Shown here piece after piece: positions 14,656 to 21,279 of a DNA stretch of 64,000 bases (positions are counted from its first letter, which is position 1; every line of letters starts with the position of its first letter). Source of the DNA: Acrocarpospora macrocephala (GTDB lineage: Bacteria; Actinomycetota; Actinomycetes; Streptosporangiales; Streptosporangiaceae); NCBI RefSeq assembly GCF_009687865.1, contig NZ_BLAE01000068.1:1-64000 (forward strand). The letters run 5' to 3'. Under the pieces are notes generated by a model, which was not told the DNA's origin, did no database searches, and worked only from the letters and a program-made list of their open reading frames with translations. Position numbers and translations under genes: made by a program.

Positions 14656-15793
14656 GAAGTCAGTCCGGCGCCTCCTAGACCACAACCCCAAAAATCACTA
14701 ACTGAACGACCTTGCCCCCAGAGGAACCCTTCGAGGCGTTCCAGAGCAAGAGCGACCGCCTGGCCGAGTTCATCGGTTCCCGCTGGCAAGACACGACCGT
14801 CTCCACGCACGTCTTCTTCGTCCACATTGATCCAGGCAAAGACATCTCGACGGGTGGCGGCCAAACTGCCCTCCCGAGGGAACAAGTGACCTCTTCCCCT
14901 TTGTACGCGCAGGCGAAGTCCATGAAGTGTGCGAGACAATCAGACTTCGCAGTCGGCCGCTAGGGCTTGATTACTTAGTTATTAAGACTGAAGCCATACG
15001 CCAATTTGCCCCGGTAGTCGCTGAGCTGATCAACTGAAACGACGCATAAATAGGGGGTCGCTGAGGATGGTGCAGAAGCTACTGAGCCCGCAGTCGGCCG
15101 AGACGAAACTCGGTATGTGCGGAAATTTTCTGGTCTATCCGTCCTTGTAGCGGGTAGCGAAGCGTACATGACCAGGACAGTGACCAAAGCGGCGACCACT
15201 CTGTGGGCGATCACCGCACTGGCCGCCCTCGCGGCGGTCGGCTGCGACGACACTTCCCATTCCCGGCAACAGGCGGCAACTCAGGCTGTCCAGATCACCC
15301 ACAGACCCCTCTGGTAGATCGACGTGAGGTAACCCGAGATCCACATTCGTGTCCCGGCGTAAAGAGGTCCCCGCGCCGCGCAGTTTCTGGACGCTGGCCA
15401 TCGGGGCACCCTCGGCCAGCTCACCGTCGGCTATCCGCCCGGCCAGCCCCGGAGCGCTGAATCCTCCGGGACTCTTCCGCGTCCCGAACACCCATGATCA
15501 TGGAGACGGGCAGCGCCTGGTCGTACGCAGTCGTGGCGCGTCATCCTCACCGGACTTCTGCTGCTCACCCAAACCGCCCGTACGGCGCTGCGGCCACTAC
15601 GCCGCCGGTTCACCCGATAACGCTCCGCAGAGCTCGATGGGCGTCCAACGTGCCGTGTCCTTAGCAGACTCGCCTGAAGCGTCGTCGCCGCGCGGCGGGC
15701 ACCGGCTACCGGCATGCTGACGCCGATCACCTCGGTTGTCTCCAAGCTGGTGATGCAGACGGCTCGATCTGCGATGTGGTCCAGGGCTGATGC
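14656..15793. other. 1.1-kb region of gene debris without a credible intact gene
   Basis: A plus-strand frame at 14712-14963 (83 codons, TTG start, no good ribosome site) is the best open frame but matches nothing I recognise. Two fragments resemble acyl-CoA ligase coding DNA: 15346-15370 matches 11651-11675 at 24 of 25 positions (VSRRKE motif), and 15741-15760 is identical to the 20 bases encoding SKLVMQT in that gene. They are in reversed order and have no open frame between them. Repeat copy A (15262-15327) lies here too. The region looks like a rearranged junction beside the peptide cluster. Confidence 0.55.
15262..15327 (+). repeat. 66-bp direct repeat, copy A (left of the peptide cluster)
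   Basis: It aligns without gaps to 21103-21168 at 59 of 66 positions, in the same orientation. The equivalent of a GAG codon in copy B is a TAG here, so copy A is not coding. Further similarity (GAGATCCACATT) follows both copies after a short gap. Confidence 0.8.
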
Positions 15794-16927
15794 TCACCAA
15801 CACACTGGAATGTAGTCGGCACTGTGATAGTTGCTGTCCTGAGAAAGATAATGCGGAGACGCCTTAGGCTGGTGCAGGGCTATCGTCGGGAACCTGCGCG
15901 ACATTTGGGTCAGGATGATCTCGAACAGCGTCTCGGTCAGGGCCTTACCGAGGCAGTGGTGGATTCCATGGCCAAACTGCAGATGGCGCAGATCAGACCG
16001 ATGGATGTCGAAGTTCTCCATGTCATGGAACTCGCGGGAATCTCGACCCGCAGCCGCAAGACTAACGTAGACGAAATCTCCCTTCTGAACATCATGGCTC
16101 GCGAGTTGGATGTCGGTTGTGGCCAGGCGACATATCGCGGGCACAGTCGCGAGATATCGAATCAGTTCTTGAACCACTGCCGGGATCGCCTGCTCGGTCA
16201 AGCATTCACCGAGTCGCTCTGGACGCTGCAGGAGGGCCAGAAGGCCGACACCGATCAAACCCTTGGGCGGATTGAAGCCGGCAACGGCGAGGCTTGTGAC
16301 GATGGATGCCGTCTCCTCGTCGGTAAAATCGGGATTCCTCGCCATCAAGCGCGTCGGCAGGTTGTCGCCAGGGTGTTCTTTCGCGTGAGCCACCAGTGCG
16401 GATATGTACTCGAAGAGTTCAAGACCGGCCTCGTGCTTGGCGTCCGCCGACGCGGATTTGCTCTCAAACAGATGCGCCCACCGGTTGAACCGGGCATAGT
16501 CGGAGGCTGGCAGGCCCAGCAGGCGAGCAGACATCCCGTACACAGCGGGGCGGACCAGATGCTCGATCAGATCGACCGGCGGGCTCTTCCGGGAAATCTC
16601 GCCGAACAGCGCCTCGACCCTCGCCTCCAGCGAAGGGCGCAGCTGCGCCACCCTGGACGTGGTGAACTCCGGCATCAGCGCCTTCCGCACCCGGGTGTGC
16701 CCAGGAGGGTCGGAAAGAATGAAGTCATATCGCTGCGGCGCGTACGGATTTGTGATGCTGGAACTAAAGCGAACCGGATCGCTCAGCACCGCTCGCGCCT
16801 CTTTGTAACCGCTGACAATCCAGACATTCTTTGCATACCTCGTTATAGGGCCGCCACCCCACTTCCGAATCTCCGGAGAAGGAAGGAACGAGAGATCCTG
16901 CGGCCCTCCCACAGCGGACGCATCCAT
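15794..16927 (-). CDS. Cytochrome P450, last gene of the peptide operon
   Basis: A 377-residue soluble bacterial P450. The haem loop FGHGIHHCLGKAL places the thiolate Cys at about residue 325, and ELIR is the ExxR motif. The I-helix is unusual: where most P450s have AG(D/E)TT, this reads AGFNPPKG, with no acid-alcohol pair for oxygen protonation. The ATG at 16927 has AAGGTGA seven bases upstream. It follows the TPR gene by 118 bp on the same strand. In this operon a P450 would most simply install an oxidation or side-chain crosslink in the precursor peptide (inference). Its redox partner is not encoded nearby. Confidence 0.93.
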   Translation of the reverse strand: MDASAVGGPQDLSFLPSPEIRKWGGGPITRYAKNVWIVSGYKEARAVLSDPVRFSSSITNPYAPQRYDFILSDPPGHTRVRKALMPEFTTSRVAQLRPSLEARVEALFGEISRKSPPVDLIEHLVRPAVYGMSARLLGLPASDYARFNRWAHLFESKSASADAKHEAGLELFEYISALVAHAKEHPGDNLPTRLMARNPDFTDEETASIVTSLAVAGFNPPKGLIGVGLLALLQRPERLGECLTEQAIPAVVQELIRYLATVPAICRLATTDIQLASHDVQKGDFVYVSLAAAGRDSREFHDMENFDIHRSDLRHLQFGHGIHHCLGKALTETLFEIILTQMSRRFPTIALHQPKASPHYLSQDSNYHSADYIPVCW

Positions 16928-17045
16928 TCTCAATTCACCTTTCGGTCATCTCACCATCAATAATGGCGAAGCTATTGATTCGGCTATCCCGACGCCTATT
17001 GCCCAGATACCCTATATTTTCGCAATTCGAATGGCCCCCGAGCTT

Positions 17046-17975
17046 CTAGGACTCATTCTCCAACCCGGCAATACCGTTCTTTGCGGCTAGGAGAGTCGGG
17101 TGGCCTTCTTCCACCTGAGGTCCGAGGATGTCGATGGCACGTCGGTAATATTCGAGCGCTTCATCCGCCCGGTTCAACCGAATGCAGGAGGAGGCGAGAT
17201 TGACCAGTGTCGTGGCCAGATCGGGATGGTCAGGGCCGCGCAGATCCTCCATAAGAGTCAACGCATGCCGATATCCGTCGATTGCGGCCACAAGGTCACC
17301 TCGGCACTGCCGGACGGCGGCGAGGTTGTGGAGATGTGTCGCGAGGTCGGCGGCGTCGCGCCCATGACAATTTCGGCGCTGGACCATTTTGACCGCATAA
17401 CGTAGTTCAGCTTCCGCATCATCCAGGCGGCCACAACCGTAGAGCAGGGCCGCCCAGGCTCCGATATCAGCCACTACCGACGGGTGGCCGGGTCCGAGTA
17501 GCCGCGTTCGAATGTCGATTCCTTTGCGAGCCCAAGAATCGCCGATTTCGTAATCGCCCTTGGCGTGAGCGAGGCCGGCGAGATTATGATAGATACCCGC
17601 AACCGAGTCGTGCTCCCCGCCGTAAACACTTTGGCATATCTCCAGGGCGCGCAGGTAGTACGCTTCCGACAGTTGGAACTGCCCGGTGTACTTTCCCAGC
17701 ACACCGAGCCTGTTGCATATCCGTGCGACAATGAGCGGGTTTTGCTTCTCCTGGCTCTCGGCCGAGTCGAGGGCGGCGCTGAGTATCAGGCCCGCGCGGC
17801 GATAATCACCCAGGCGTTCCCAGTGCGCGGCTTGATTGACTTGGCCGCACAGACTCGCGTGTGTTCCCACTGCCTCTTCAGGGCTTCGACCGATCTCGTC
17901 GCATACGCAGATAAATGAGAGTTCCTGCACGAGTTCGGATTCCTGGTTCATCTGGTTGCCCACCGCCATCGTCAT
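17046..17975 (-). CDS. Tetratricopeptide-repeat protein of the peptide operon
   Basis: About 309 residues from the ATG at 17975, five bases after the preceding stop. At least five TPR units of about 42 residues are visible, with the kinesin-light-chain-type spacing. Examples are YTGQFQLSEAYYLRALEICQ, KGDYEIGDSWARKGIDIRTR and LNRADEALEYYRRAIDILG. TPRs build protein-binding superhelices, so it could scaffold the maturase, P450 and precursor; no catalytic domain is present. An alternative upstream start at 18071 would overlap the previous gene by 92 bases and is less likely. Confidence 0.85.
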   Translation of the reverse strand: MTMAVGNQMNQESELVQELSFICVCDEIGRSPEEAVGTHASLCGQVNQAAHWERLGDYRRAGLILSAALDSAESQEKQNPLIVARICNRLGVLGKYTGQFQLSEAYYLRALEICQSVYGGEHDSVAGIYHNLAGLAHAKGDYEIGDSWARKGIDIRTRLLGPGHPSVVADIGAWAALLYGCGRLDDAEAELRYAVKMVQRRNCHGRDAADLATHLHNLAAVRQCRGDLVAAIDGYRHALTLMEDLRGPDHPDLATTLVNLASSCIRLNRADEALEYYRRAIDILGPQVEEGHPTLLAAKNGIAGLENES

Positions 17976-17979
17976 CCCG

Positions 17980-18591
17980 CTAACGATGCAGGCCGGTTGG
18001 CCATCGCCGCATTCGGCAGGGCAGGGAAGTGACAAACGATCCGATTCGCCCGACGATTCGTGCGGCCTCAAGTGATTGTATTACCCTCAAGGAGTAGCCA
18101 TCTATTTCGCGGACACTGCTATAGGTTTGGAGCCTGTCGAAGAGCTCCAGGGCATCTCCCGTGAGCCGGTGGCGCAGCACACGACTTGGCCTGCGCGCGT
18201 CTCGGACCAGGGCAAAGTGCGGACCTTTCCGATAATAGCATGAACCATTTACGAAAGAGTCCTGCCATGCTTCCAGGACCGCAGCGTGAGAGCCTAGGTC
18301 ACTTGGTGGCCCGAGGTGATGCAGGAGAGTGGGATCACAATTCGGTGAGCCGTCGGCGGACCAGCTCACCGCTATTCCAAATGATGTCGCTTCCCGAAGT
18401 TGGCAGATGAACGCTATGTCATCTTCGTCTGTCCTGCCGAACTCGAACGGGAGGCCCACGAAAATCTTTCGGTAGCTGGCACGCGCAGCGCTCGGCATGT
18501 CCGTCCGCAAGAACGCCGCCTGATCTTCGATCAGGAGTGTTCTGGGTCCTGGCCCAAGGGCGGGCGGAAAGCTACTGAGGGTTTCCATCAT
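17980..18591 (-). CDS. 203-residue partner protein of the radical SAM maturase
   Basis: The ATG at 18591 overlaps the maturase stop (ATGA), implying translational coupling. The first part holds FVGLPFEFGRTDEDDIAFIC and an SWSADG segment. The second part reads YYRKGPHFALVRDARRPSR and then a helix-rich stretch, LTGDALELFDRLQTYSSVRE to ARIVGRIGS. That stretch has the hydrophobic spacing of a PqqD-like or winged-helix peptide-recognition module. Proteins of this type (DUF5825-like, assigned from memory with low confidence) often accompany this maturase family. A precursor-binding role is an inference. Confidence 0.7.
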   Translation of the reverse strand: MMETLSSFPPALGPGPRTLLIEDQAAFLRTDMPSAARASYRKIFVGLPFEFGRTDEDDIAFICQLREATSFGIAVSWSADGSPNCDPTLLHHLGPPSDLGSHAAVLEAWQDSFVNGSCYYRKGPHFALVRDARRPSRVLRHRLTGDALELFDRLQTYSSVREIDGYSLRVIQSLEAARIVGRIGSFVTSLPCRMRRWPTGLHR

Positions 18592-20465
18592 CGCACCTTC
18601 GTCGGGATGCTCGTTGTGGGCAACGTGATATACGTGTCGTTTTCGACGAAGACAAGCCCTAGGTCCGTCAACTCCTGAAGCCAGGCGTCGAGCTGTCCGA
18701 AGGAAATATTTGTCCCGGCCTCTTGGAGGTGTCGGCGAAGACCCTGCAGAGATCGGCCGCGTTCGAGTTCTCGATAAGCAGTGATCAAGTTTGGATCTGT
18801 GATGTGATGATCCTTTGACGGCCAGCCCGCACGTCTATCCTCAATGTGCAGGCCGGCCGCGTCTATGAGGCGTGTGAGTGAACTTTCAGGATAGTGCGTG
18901 ATCCAGGCTTCCAGAGCCTCACGGAGCATGCTGCTGACGCCTTCATCAATTCCTGCGGGCTCGGTGTCGAAAGCGTATGCGATATCGTCGAGTTCCTCCT
19001 CCGGCAGGTTGTAGATGTGTTTGTAGTACCCTCTCGCACGGCGTTGCTCGAACCCTAGGGAAGGCCGATCGAAATAAGGGCTGAAACGCTCCAGGAATAT
19101 ACGCGTCGATCCCCCTGGCGGCTGCAGGTGAACTAGTGCCGGGATTTGGCGGATAATGGGCAGATAATGATCGTCCTGCTCTCCGGGGAAACCCACAAGC
19201 CAGTGCCAGGTGACGCTGATGTCAGCCGATTCTGAGTCCCTTAGCGTGCGAAGGTTGTGGATTGCCAGAACTCCCTTGTCCATAAGCTTGAGCACAGGGG
19301 TGGAGAGCGATTCGATTCCAGGTTGGATTTGGATAACTTTGGCATCGCGGAGAATGCTGATCTGCTCCGGCCTGAGGTTGGCTTTCACCTCATAATGAAT
19401 TCGCATGTCCCAGTCGAGCTCAGCCAGCCTTGGGAGAACCGTGGTGAAGTAGCCATGATCTATGATGTTGTCCACCATCAATATATCGAGCACGCCGTGC
19501 CGCTCGACCAGGCCGGTGATCTCCTCAAAAGCCCGGTCGGGATGCTTTCCACGGAATTCCATCAGGGAGCCGTTCAGTCCGCAGAACGTGCAGTGGTGAA
19601 CCTGCCCCCACCAGCAGCCACGTGAGGTTTCCAGCAGGAGCTTTGGCGTCAGATGCGCGCGAAGGGGGGAGTGCTCAACCCGCTGGAACCAGTCGTCATA
19701 GTCGGGAGTGGGAATGCCGTTCGCTGGCAATGGCCGGCGGCTCTGTTCGTTGACCATGAGGTCACTGCCCTTGGCCCAGCACAGGCCTGGGATGGTGTCG
19801 AACTCACGATGGCCTTCGATCGCGTCGAGCAGTTGCGGAAAGACTTGCTCGCCTTCACCCCGGACAATGTAGTCAATCACATTGAAGTAGTTCCGGTGCA
19901 TTGCCTGGCCCATGACGCCGTCGCAGTTTCCGCCACCCAGAAGAGTGATCACATCCGGCCGATAATGCTTGATGCGTGCTGCCAGGGCGAGACTCGGCAC
20001 GTTCTGCGAGAATGTCGACGTGAACCCTACGATCTGTGGATCGGTCGCGAGGATCTCGATCGCCGCCAGATCAATGAAACGCGCGGCGTATTCCCGCATC
20101 GCATGCGCCTTGCCGGGGTCACCCTTTATACTCCGCAGATAATCATCGAAACCCTCGCGCCCGAAGTCGTCATCACCGTGGAGCGCGCCTGCGAACACCC
20201 AGTCGCCGATTCCCTCGAATGCCCATTGATCACTGATGTGGCTGTAGTCTTCCAGGCTGAACGACTCGGTGGCGTGAACGGCCAGGAATTCGGCCCAGCG
20301 CAGGTTTCCGTAATATGTGTCCGGGTAGTCCCGCCCCGACTTCTTGCACACTGCCCGAAGCAGCCCCAGCGGCAGCGACGGATAATCCAGAGCTTGCCAT
20401 GGCATGGTAACCAGGCAGACTCTTGATTGAGCGCCTCGTTGAGCGGTCTCGCCAATAGTCTTCAT
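18588..20465 (-). CDS. RiPP-maturation B12-binding radical SAM protein (putative C-methyltransferase)
   Basis: 625 residues from the ATG at 20465 (AGGA six bases upstream). The N-terminal part (to about 225) is a cobalamin-binding-like Rossmann domain with LLGGGNCDG and YIVRGEGEQVFPQLLDAIEG. The radical SAM core carries SRGCWWGQVHHCTFCGLNG, a CX7CX2C cluster motif typical of the 'RiPP maturation radical SAM protein 1' family (TIGR03975). It does not have the usual CX3CX2C. The C-terminal 110 residues look winged-helix-like (SLQGLRRHLQEA to LVFVENDTYITLP) and may bind the leader peptide. It lies between the precursor and the 203-residue partner gene. Methylation or another radical modification of the precursor is predicted. 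Confidence 0.9.
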   Translation of the reverse strand: MKTIGETAQRGAQSRVCLVTMPWQALDYPSLPLGLLRAVCKKSGRDYPDTYYGNLRWAEFLAVHATESFSLEDYSHISDQWAFEGIGDWVFAGALHGDDDFGREGFDDYLRSIKGDPGKAHAMREYAARFIDLAAIEILATDPQIVGFTSTFSQNVPSLALAARIKHYRPDVITLLGGGNCDGVMGQAMHRNYFNVIDYIVRGEGEQVFPQLLDAIEGHREFDTIPGLCWAKGSDLMVNEQSRRPLPANGIPTPDYDDWFQRVEHSPLRAHLTPKLLLETSRGCWWGQVHHCTFCGLNGSLMEFRGKHPDRAFEEITGLVERHGVLDILMVDNIIDHGYFTTVLPRLAELDWDMRIHYEVKANLRPEQISILRDAKVIQIQPGIESLSTPVLKLMDKGVLAIHNLRTLRDSESADISVTWHWLVGFPGEQDDHYLPIIRQIPALVHLQPPGGSTRIFLERFSPYFDRPSLGFEQRRARGYYKHIYNLPEEELDDIAYAFDTEPAGIDEGVSSMLREALEAWITHYPESSLTRLIDAAGLHIEDRRAGWPSKDHHITDPNLITAYRELERGRSLQGLRRHLQEAGTNISFGQLDAWLQELTDLGLVFVENDTYITLPTTSIPTKVR

Positions 20466-20559
20466 TTCGGGTCCTGCCGTTGGGGGCACTTAGAGCTTTA
20501 ACTGCCGGCGCAGGGCACGGCACCAAGGCCGTACCCTGCGGGCAGCGACCTAGATCTGA

Positions 20560-20706
20560 CTAGATCTGGTCGCCTTCCACCAGGATTCGGTTGTGGTTGA
20601 AGTTGATGCCCCTGAGGAGCTGGTGCTCGGCGAGATCTTCGATCGTGAGGATGCCCATTGCTTCGGACTCTTGATCCCCTGGTACGACGTGTGGCTCCTG
20701 CGACAT
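20560..20706 (-). CDS. Candidate RiPP precursor peptide, 48 residues
   Basis: A short gene directly upstream of the maturase on the same strand, with purine-rich AGGAAAGGAAAAGGA just before its ATG. The acidic N-terminal half (MSQEPHVVPG, then ESEAMGILTIEDLAEH) has the amphipathic, Leu/Glu-rich look of a leader. The C-terminal tail after LLRG, INFNHNRILVEGDQI, is a candidate core with three Asn, one Phe and one His as possible targets. It has no Cys, Trp or Tyr. The 94-bp gap to the maturase lets the peptide be made in excess. Leader and core boundaries are inferred; no protease or exporter gene is adjacent. Confidence 0.75.
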   Translation of the reverse strand: MSQEPHVVPGDQESEAMGILTIEDLAEHQLLRGINFNHNRILVEGDQI

Positions 20707-21279
20707 TCCTTTTCCTTTCCTGAGGAGTTGCCGACTCTGATCGAGTCATACGCGTCGGACGATGACTGAATATCGGATCCGACCGCGAATCTGATTTATC
20801 GGCCCTTGCCCAAACTTGGCGACCAGCCGTTATACAATGCGGGCCTTCAGATTCGCGGTGTTTCCCTGATCCAGTCCATCCGGAATGTCACAGTCATAAT
20901 GACGGGGGTGGCTGAAGCGGCGCTGATGCGGTGCTGGAATCTGGTTGTCGTCCGCCGGCTCAAGGAGGAACTGGACCGCACCGGGCCGGCGGCCGGCCCG
21001 GGTGCTCGCTGGCGGCGCTTCCTTTCCCGGCGCCTGCCCGTGCCCTTCCCTTCCTGGATCTGGACGGCGAGCAAGCGCTGGGCGGATGGAACGCCATCCC
21101 CGCCCGGCAGCAGGCGGCCACTCAGGCTGTCCAGGTCATCCACAGAGCCTTCTGGGAGATCGACGTGACGTCACCGGATCGGAGCCGAGATCCACATTGC
21201 CGGCGCGCCAAAATTCCGCAGGAAAGTTCGGGCCCGTGTCTTGTTGTAGCTTGGCGGGGTGAACCATGAAAGGCCGCCA
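20707..21279. other. Non-coding interval upstream of the peptide operon, holding repeat copy B
   Basis: The part next to 20707 must contain the promoter of the minus-strand peptide operon and is locally AT-rich around 20770-20800. From about 20930 to 21250 a high-GC stretch has open frames but no convincing ribosome site. In one plus frame around copy B it reads WNAIPARQQAATQAVQVIHR, which looks like decayed coding sequence of a family I cannot name. Confidence 0.5.
21103..21168 (+). repeat. 66-bp direct repeat, copy B (right of the peptide cluster)
   Basis: Same orientation as copy A, 89% identical over 66 ungapped bases, about 5.8 kb away. Together the copies bracket the whole peptide operon. 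Confidence 0.8.

Follow-up and report, generated by a model that had tools for sequence, protein, structure and literature searches.

A stretch of 64,000 nucleotides from Acrocarpospora macrocephala (contig NZ_BLAE01000068.1, positions 1 to 64,000; hereafter the window) raises the question of what kind of peptide is made by five genes that follow one another on its minus strand, and which of their products recognises that peptide. The series comprises a 48-amino acid open reading frame (ORF), a B12-dependent radical S-adenosylmethionine (rSAM) maturase, a DUF5825 protein, a tetratricopeptide repeat (TPR) protein and a cytochrome P450; all five frames are present, open and on the minus strand. 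We propose, with a probability of roughly 60%, that they form a hybrid operon for a ribosomally synthesized and post-translationally modified peptide (RiPP), in which the rSAM/DUF5825 pair would C-methylate, and the P450 would oxidise or cross-link, a core with an Asn-His-Asn (NHN) motif that the TPR protein would hold. A preliminary description of this DNA had recognised a five-gene minus-strand operon of lower GC content, with a maturase of the TIGR03975 type, a coupled 203-residue partner, a TPR protein and a P450, and had read it as a RiPP operon. These assignments stand, and the RiPP reading is supported by way of the NHN peptides encoded near homologues of the TPR protein.

The 48-residue ORF is almost certainly a true precursor and, judged by its motif, belongs to a family of NHN peptides. 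It holds one NHN unit, RGINFNHNRILVE, which scores 32.7 bits against a 13-column matrix built from 33 units of its relatives, the window's own unit being left out. This score was reached by none of 100,000 shuffles (best shuffle 30.2 bits), and the same matrix gave 4.9 bits for the runner-up among the 486 small ORFs of the window and at most 11.3 bits among 4,071 small ORFs of control maturase loci; across 40 such control loci, NHN did not occur in any ORF of 25-180 amino acids. The peptide ends in LLRGINFNHNRILVEGDQI, its last residues being GDQI, and its core is free of Cys, Trp and Tyr, as the preliminary description had read it. Neither NCBIfam nor Pfam contains a family that matches the 48-mer at E<=1; when six NHN peptides of relatives were included (four compared with NCBIfam, four with Pfam, two with both), nothing exceeded a curated cut-off and a few chance matches lay below it.

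The signals around the ORF agree with this assignment. An AAAGGA element lies 6 bases ahead of its ATG, and its codon score of 0.239 exceeds 98.5% of 135 in-frame stretches from four operon genes, scored by leaving out one gene at a time, a level that no off-frame stretch out of 675 and no shuffle out of 2000 reached. The codon statistics leave the strand unsettled because the mirrored plus-strand frame scores equally well (0.263); the strand is settled by the ribosome site, the position in the operon and the NHN homology. A 58-amino acid antisense ORF on the plus strand (20593-20769) overlies the precursor, and its similarly good codon statistics in the mirrored frame are probably a mirror effect.

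The family to which the core belongs emerged from the TPR protein (PF13424, 1.5e-31). Searching with this protein at E<=1e-30 in 341 genomes of the host's taxonomic family returned 17 further places in 16 other genomes, with 36-51% identity and alignment nearly from end to end. In 14 of these 17 loci (L136-L149 of L136-L152), a short ORF near the TPR gene encodes a unit of the type RGLSLNHNEVVLE, which occurs one to five times; a scan restricted to ORFs of 25-180 amino acids counts 13, as the ORF of L143 is shorter. Outside the family, an NHN peptide accompanies the TPR homologue on a Streptomyces plasmid, where it is annotated as 'hypothetical protein', and also in G522, which gave the sole other TPR match when 396 genomes of the phylum were sampled. 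In total, by the TPR search alone, short ORFs with single or repeated xNHNE cores stand near the TPR gene in 16 of the 19 loci examined; the L153 record has TPR matches at two places. The preliminary description had expected a small ORF with the pattern TIEDLAEH...LLRG to be conserved at homologous loci. At TPR homologues a small ORF with the same core is indeed found, but the pattern was wrong: what is conserved is the NHN unit, which lies C-terminally, in the second half of the peptide.

The pair of NHN peptide and TPR protein is constant while the neighbouring enzyme genes vary. L136 has the window's layout with a different maturase pair: one peptide with four NHN units (3424-2992 bases upstream of the TPR match), then YcaO, TfuA and TPR genes, which makes this peptide a candidate thioamide or azoline peptide. 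A SagB-like dehydrogenase occurs in L137 and L141, a C39 peptidase-ABC transporter in L146, and an FAD-binding protein in L148, while L149 has a P450 gene that runs on the other strand. A major facilitator superfamily (MFS) transporter adjoins the TPR gene in seven of the 17 loci (L142-L148) and on the Streptomyces plasmid; an eighth candidate, in L152, proved to be an ORF antisense to the TPR gene and is left uncounted. L147 is reduced to a same-strand series of NHN peptide, MFS transporter and TPR gene with no other gene called, and L143 and L145 add one same-strand gene each (133 amino acids without a Pfam match and a 216-amino acid DUF433 protein, respectively). Because the pairing persists under changing enzymes, the NHN region is most likely what the TPR protein recognises.

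The chemistry is suggested by the remaining three proteins. The maturase matches TIGR03975 with 571 bits (cut-off 282, E 2.5e-171), Radical_SAM with 6.6e-11 and the B12-binding domain PF02310 with 3e-07, the last at 30.7 bits and thus slightly below its cut-off of 32.1. A Cx7Cx2C motif at residues 292-303 is kept in 41 of 42 aligned maturases, the window's included; the accessible text of PMC11285071 reports this motif for the C-beta methylase PoyC, which methylates the beta-carbons of Ile and Val. The last 100 residues of the maturase align with a profile of 16 sequences of the winged-helix family PqqD (hhalign probability 96.2; reversed control 0.1), the kind of domain that serves as a RiPP recognition element (RRE). 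The DUF5825 protein (PF19142, 9.2e-23) has a C-terminal domain that matches that of the maturase (hhalign probability 97.7, reversed controls 0.2 and 1.2; 97.3 in a separate comparison), and since it matches PqqD directly with a probability of only 1.9, the relation runs through the maturase C-terminus alone. From these two matches, both proteins look built to bind a peptide. In an AlphaFold model of the maturase (pLDDT 53.8) only the C-terminal strand-helix order was inspected; a model of the DUF5825 protein (three rows; pLDDT 48.5) gave no match in a fold search at E<=0.001 and was left unused.

The P450 (PF00067, 5.5e-18) has an intact haem-Cys loop, FGHGIHHCLG. Most P450s carry an acid and a Thr in the I-helix, a pair that is missing from the AGFNPPKG of the window's enzyme. 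The I-helix is likewise atypical in its nearest solved relatives, 4mm0 (AGYEPASN) and OxyB 4tx3 (AGDDNVSG); OxyB cross-links aromatic side chains and 4mm0 is a thioether-forming P450. In the window, NHN is preceded by Phe; in L149, the one TPR locus where a P450 was seen, Tyr takes this position.

Joined together, these observations suggest the following route. Residues 1-31 of the 48-mer would serve as leader and residues 32-48 would hold the single NHN core. The TPR protein would bind the NHN region and present it to the enzymes, while the rSAM enzyme, through its PqqD-like domain, and its DUF5825 partner would grip the precursor. In keeping with the maturase family, methyl groups would be added to unactivated side-chain carbons of the core, for example the beta-carbons of Ile, Leu or Val. 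The P450 might then oxidise the methylated core or join two side chains; in its boldest form, which is speculative, this proposal has Phe36 cross-linked to His38. As no protease or exporter was found nearby, the leader would be removed and the product exported by host enzymes or by distant genes.

To view the locus from the side of the maturase, 45 maturase loci were compared: 40 of the 79 other places listed in the family search (mostly the strongest matches, 37 of the 40 at 42-50% identity), two from Alicyclobacillus and three Streptomyces plasmids. By tblastn at 1e-4, 38 of the 45 have a DUF5825 gene, which adjoins the maturase on the same strand in 37; L047 and L055 gave weaker DUF5825 matches without composition correction. 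A P450 lies within 7 kb of the maturase in six of the 45 (L041, L042, L045, L057 and L072 by tblastn, L036 by Pfam), so that such genes are not rare near TIGR03975/DUF5825 pairs; the P450 of L045 is also supported by Pfam, and that of L072 is an end piece without a Pfam match at 1e-5 that rests on tblastn. In L045 a single ORF (L045:3403-4914) about 2 kb upstream of the maturase/DUF5825 pair combines a ThiS domain (residues 4-90) with a P450 domain. In five loci (L052, L057, L063, L064 and L065) the rSAM/DUF5825 pair is preceded by another gene of the maturase family and by an MNIO gene, the MNIO being Pfam-checked in L052, L057 and L063, with an Stf0 sulphotransferase nearby that was Pfam-checked in L052; the arrangement resembles YHxYxY clusters mentioned in the available part of PMC12257519.

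Immediately upstream of the maturase, several of these loci encode a short peptide whose ORF has a ribosome site. A ribosome-site filter on upstream ORFs passed 28 of 46 sequences, a figure to be read as that of a filter without a control, many of the passing ORFs looking spurious. The 18-amino acid peptide MKRKVIRKQQTASQRHEF is nearly invariant in L056, L059, L061, L066, L069 and L070; encoded some 70-145 bases ahead of the maturase anchor and equipped with a ribosome site, it is plausibly a very short precursor. L036 has, 266 to 68 bases upstream of the anchor and directly ahead of a TIGR03975-type maturase, a 65-amino acid ORF whose ribosome site is strong and whose product contains PMIRSAAT-like units, six in tandem, likely a multi-core precursor, and L079 has, 55-420 bases upstream, a tandem pair of related short precursors (MEKTVVENDPQ... 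and MEKTVVHNNPQ...). In Streptomyces clavuligerus the upstream peptide is MQKDVIHNDPLAGDEENRKPSVGITITVPFRNAEDADED. None of the upstream peptides resembles the window's 48-mer, and from the maturase side alone the 48-mer is an orphan; in this half, the expectation of a conserved small ORF at homologous loci held only in part. A common leader motif, suggested by eye (HVVPGDQ versus TVVENDP), was rejected, as a sizeable share of shuffles does as well.

A number of findings weigh against the proposed hybrid operon. Its two halves are otherwise seen apart: at tblastn 1e-4, rSAM and DUF5825 matches are missing from all 17 TPR loci of the family, the window's TPR protein has no match in the 45 maturase loci, and the joint operon is thus seen once. 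The TPR_12 protein of L040 and the regulators of L042 (BTAD/NB-ARC, without a TPR match) and L079 (BTAD/NB-ARC/TPR), considered as parallels, show no relation to the window's TPR protein at this threshold. No NHN peptide was seen in three of the 17 TPR loci (L150-L152), and the window's unit reads NHNR where its relatives have NHNE, a few NHNQ or NHSE, and one NHND. The leader shows no significant likeness to the KxVIx leaders of maturase-linked peptides: shuffles are as good in 15.6% of cases for residues 1-20 and in 41% for the full peptide, in a weak test that some true-looking relatives also fail when held out. The P450 has no relative above 39% identity among the matches listed at E<=1e-50 in the host's family, and its gene is preceded by a gap of 118 bases. 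A tight link between P450 and aromatic residue is disfavoured by the units of L137, L139, L140, L145, L148, L153 and L155, which have an aromatic residue ahead of NHN and no P450 match. Finally, a Pfam scan of ten neighbouring proteins, two of which matched no family, found no exporter or protease, as the preliminary description had stated, whereas seven TPR relatives have an MFS neighbour.

The alternative that survives best, although we consider it unlikely, regards the TPR protein as the cell's receptor for the mature NHN peptide or as its protection against that peptide, so that the cluster would make a modified signal or toxin-like peptide together with its own sensor or immunity factor. 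TPR receptors for peptide pheromones exist, those of the RRNPP type. The bare cassette of L147, with L143 and L145 nearly so, speaks for such a reading, the C39 peptidase-ABC transporter that follows in L146 fits it as well, and the repeated cores resemble multi-copy pheromone precursors. On the other hand, the window's TPR protein has no DNA-binding domain at the Pfam cut-off, its gene stands in a same-strand series with maturases both in L136 and in the window, and a distant maturase is possible in L143, L145 and L147, where the scans covered mostly near genes. Scaffold and receptor are inseparable by sequence: the bare cassettes favour a receptor, and the co-location with maturases in L136 and the window favours a scaffold.

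The genomic setting bears on a further alternative, in which the locus would be a decayed or chance recombinant at an insertion hotspot, an assembly of unrelated genes without a product. The GC content is 57-60% over 16-21 kb; outside the stretch from 12 to 26 kb, most values lie at 66-75%. Two 76-bp repeats, which match only these two places in the whole genome, bracket the operon, and no integrase lies between them when they are tested as integration sites. In the congener G004, long flanking matches of 91-95% identity enclose a different sequence of 14.8 kb at the corresponding site. The region is thus an island at a variable site, a setting that fits acquisition as a unit and leaves room for chance assembly, to which the single occurrence of the joint operon and the NHNR unit would also lend themselves. 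Such an assembly is nevertheless improbable, given five open frames with start sites, an intact haem-Cys loop and Cx7Cx2C motif, and the tight spacing of the rSAM, DUF5825 and TPR genes: the first two overlap in ATGA, as originally described, and the gap to the TPR gene, given before as 5 bp, reads as 4 bases.

It is very improbable that the operon is an ordinary clavusporin-like C-methylation operon with the TPR and P450 genes as passengers. B12-rSAM/DUF5825 pairs are common in the family, several of them with short upstream peptides, and S. clavuligerus carries MFS, hydrolase, rSAM and DUF5825 genes. However, the core of the 48-mer is that of the TPR-linked family and its leader is not that of the maturase-linked peptides, and the TPR gene therefore belongs to the operon. 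That the 48-amino acid ORF is not a gene is scarcely credible in view of its NHN motif, ribosome site, codon score and position, even though plain tblastn found no convincing homologue (best E 0.04 in 42 maturase loci, best E 2 in plasmids) and the antisense ORF has similar codon statistics.

How far the hybrid operon departs from characterised systems depends on which of its parts is compared. With the biarylitides and other P450-cross-linked RiPPs it compares through its P450, whose I-helix is as atypical as those of OxyB and 4mm0, and through the F-x-H of the core, which resembles the Y-x-H of biarylitides; different from these, the window has a 48-amino acid precursor, no Tyr and an additional rSAM pair. 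The FxSxx-COOH RiPP system combines an rSAM enzyme with a TPR protein, as does the window, yet the window's TPR protein reaches 81.9 bits against a cut-off of 300 (NF040586) and the precursor ends in GDQI rather than FxSxx. The Cx7Cx2C motif is common to the PoyC-type C-beta methylases of polytheonamide, and unlike proteusins the 48-mer has no nitrile-hydratase-like leader (no match in NCBIfam or Pfam at E<=1).

A homologous B12-rSAM/DUF5825 pair C-methylates clavusporins, as stated in the part of PMC12257519 at hand, and the window agrees with them in the TIGR03975 family, the adjacent DUF5825 partner and the short upstream precursor. It differs in its additional TPR and P450 genes, its NHN core and a leader that is not significantly alike, and also in that no MFS or hydrolase gene was found beside it, such as S. 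clavuligerus has. Its name and hydrolase gene suggest that the S. clavuligerus cluster could be the one for clavusporins, which, in accessible passages of PMC12951456, are served by a prolyl oligopeptidase. In aminopyruvatides, a single RiPP is modified both by a B12-rSAM enzyme, which yields beta-methyl-Tyr, and by a P450, which forms a Tyr-Tyr biaryl, as described in the available portion of PMC11117315. The window operon likewise has both enzymes, but neither an MNIO nor a Tyr in its core, and it stays far below the ApyD and ApyO equivalog cut-offs (86.2 versus 750 bits and 36.3 versus 525 bits). Biphenomycin clusters have a TPR protein and a B12-rSAM enzyme within one RiPP operon (accessible parts of PMC12707348 and PMC12257519), the TPR protein being described in that part of PMC12257519 as a putative arginase; in these excerpts they differ from the window by an MNIO partner and by cores that are FHAFRF-like or FRFRS.

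Thus, B12-rSAM with P450 on one RiPP, TPR with B12-rSAM and B12-rSAM with DUF5825 are already known, and the earlier impression that the combination matches no characterised class stands only for the TPR/NHN part, which we could not match to anything described. Literature searches, with most subscription journals beyond their reach, found no description of an NHNE/TPR peptide family. It is conceivable, at somewhat less than an even chance, that NHN peptides and the TPR protein constitute an undescribed RiPP class, in which the TPR protein would be the constant core recognition element and unrelated maturase sets would be swapped (YcaO/TfuA, a SagB-like dehydrogenase, B12-rSAM/DUF5825/P450, or none); the window would then represent a B12-radical/P450 branch, with a C-methylated core and an oxidative cross-link at aromatic-x-His. 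A claim of a new class would need a product. The features of the locus are compiled in the table.

Table. Positions of the operon genes and flanking repeats in the window
Feature	Position	Strand	Evidence and remarks
Probable precursor peptide gene, 48 amino acids	20560..20706	-	ORF and translation; AAAGGA site; codon score; match of the NHN core to peptides near TPR homologues
Predicted core region RGINFNHNRILVEGDQI, residues 32-48	20563..20613	-	13-column motif score; NHN at 20590-20598
Predicted B12-dependent radical SAM C-methyltransferase, TIGR03975	18588..20489	-	TIGR03975, PF02310, Radical_SAM and PqqD profile matches; possible ATG start at 20465
DUF5825 partner, 203 amino acids	17980..18591	-	PF19142; C-terminal domain related to that of the maturase
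Standalone TPR_12 protein, proposed NHN-peptide-binding scaffold	17046..17975 (from ATG)	-	PF13424; family homologues
Cytochrome P450	15794..16927 (from ATG)	-	PF00067; haem-Cys loop
76-bp direct repeat, left copy	15262..15337	+	Repeat search; located within an ORF whose start is lipoprotein-like
76-bp direct repeat, right copy, 87% identical	21103..21178	+	Repeat search

If the proposal is true, a system in which the TPR protein recognises the core and is retained while the enzymes change would follow a logic unlike that of the usual leader-reading RiPP systems, and it would offer a way to bring YcaO, radical-B12 and P450 chemistry together on a single peptide. How a B12-rSAM/DUF5825 pair may grip its substrate is suggested by the matching C-termini of the DUF5825 protein and the maturase. 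In addition, a TPR gene together with NHNE repeats offers a search key for peptide genes that are easily overlooked, since in the one annotated record examined such a peptide is listed as a 'hypothetical protein'.

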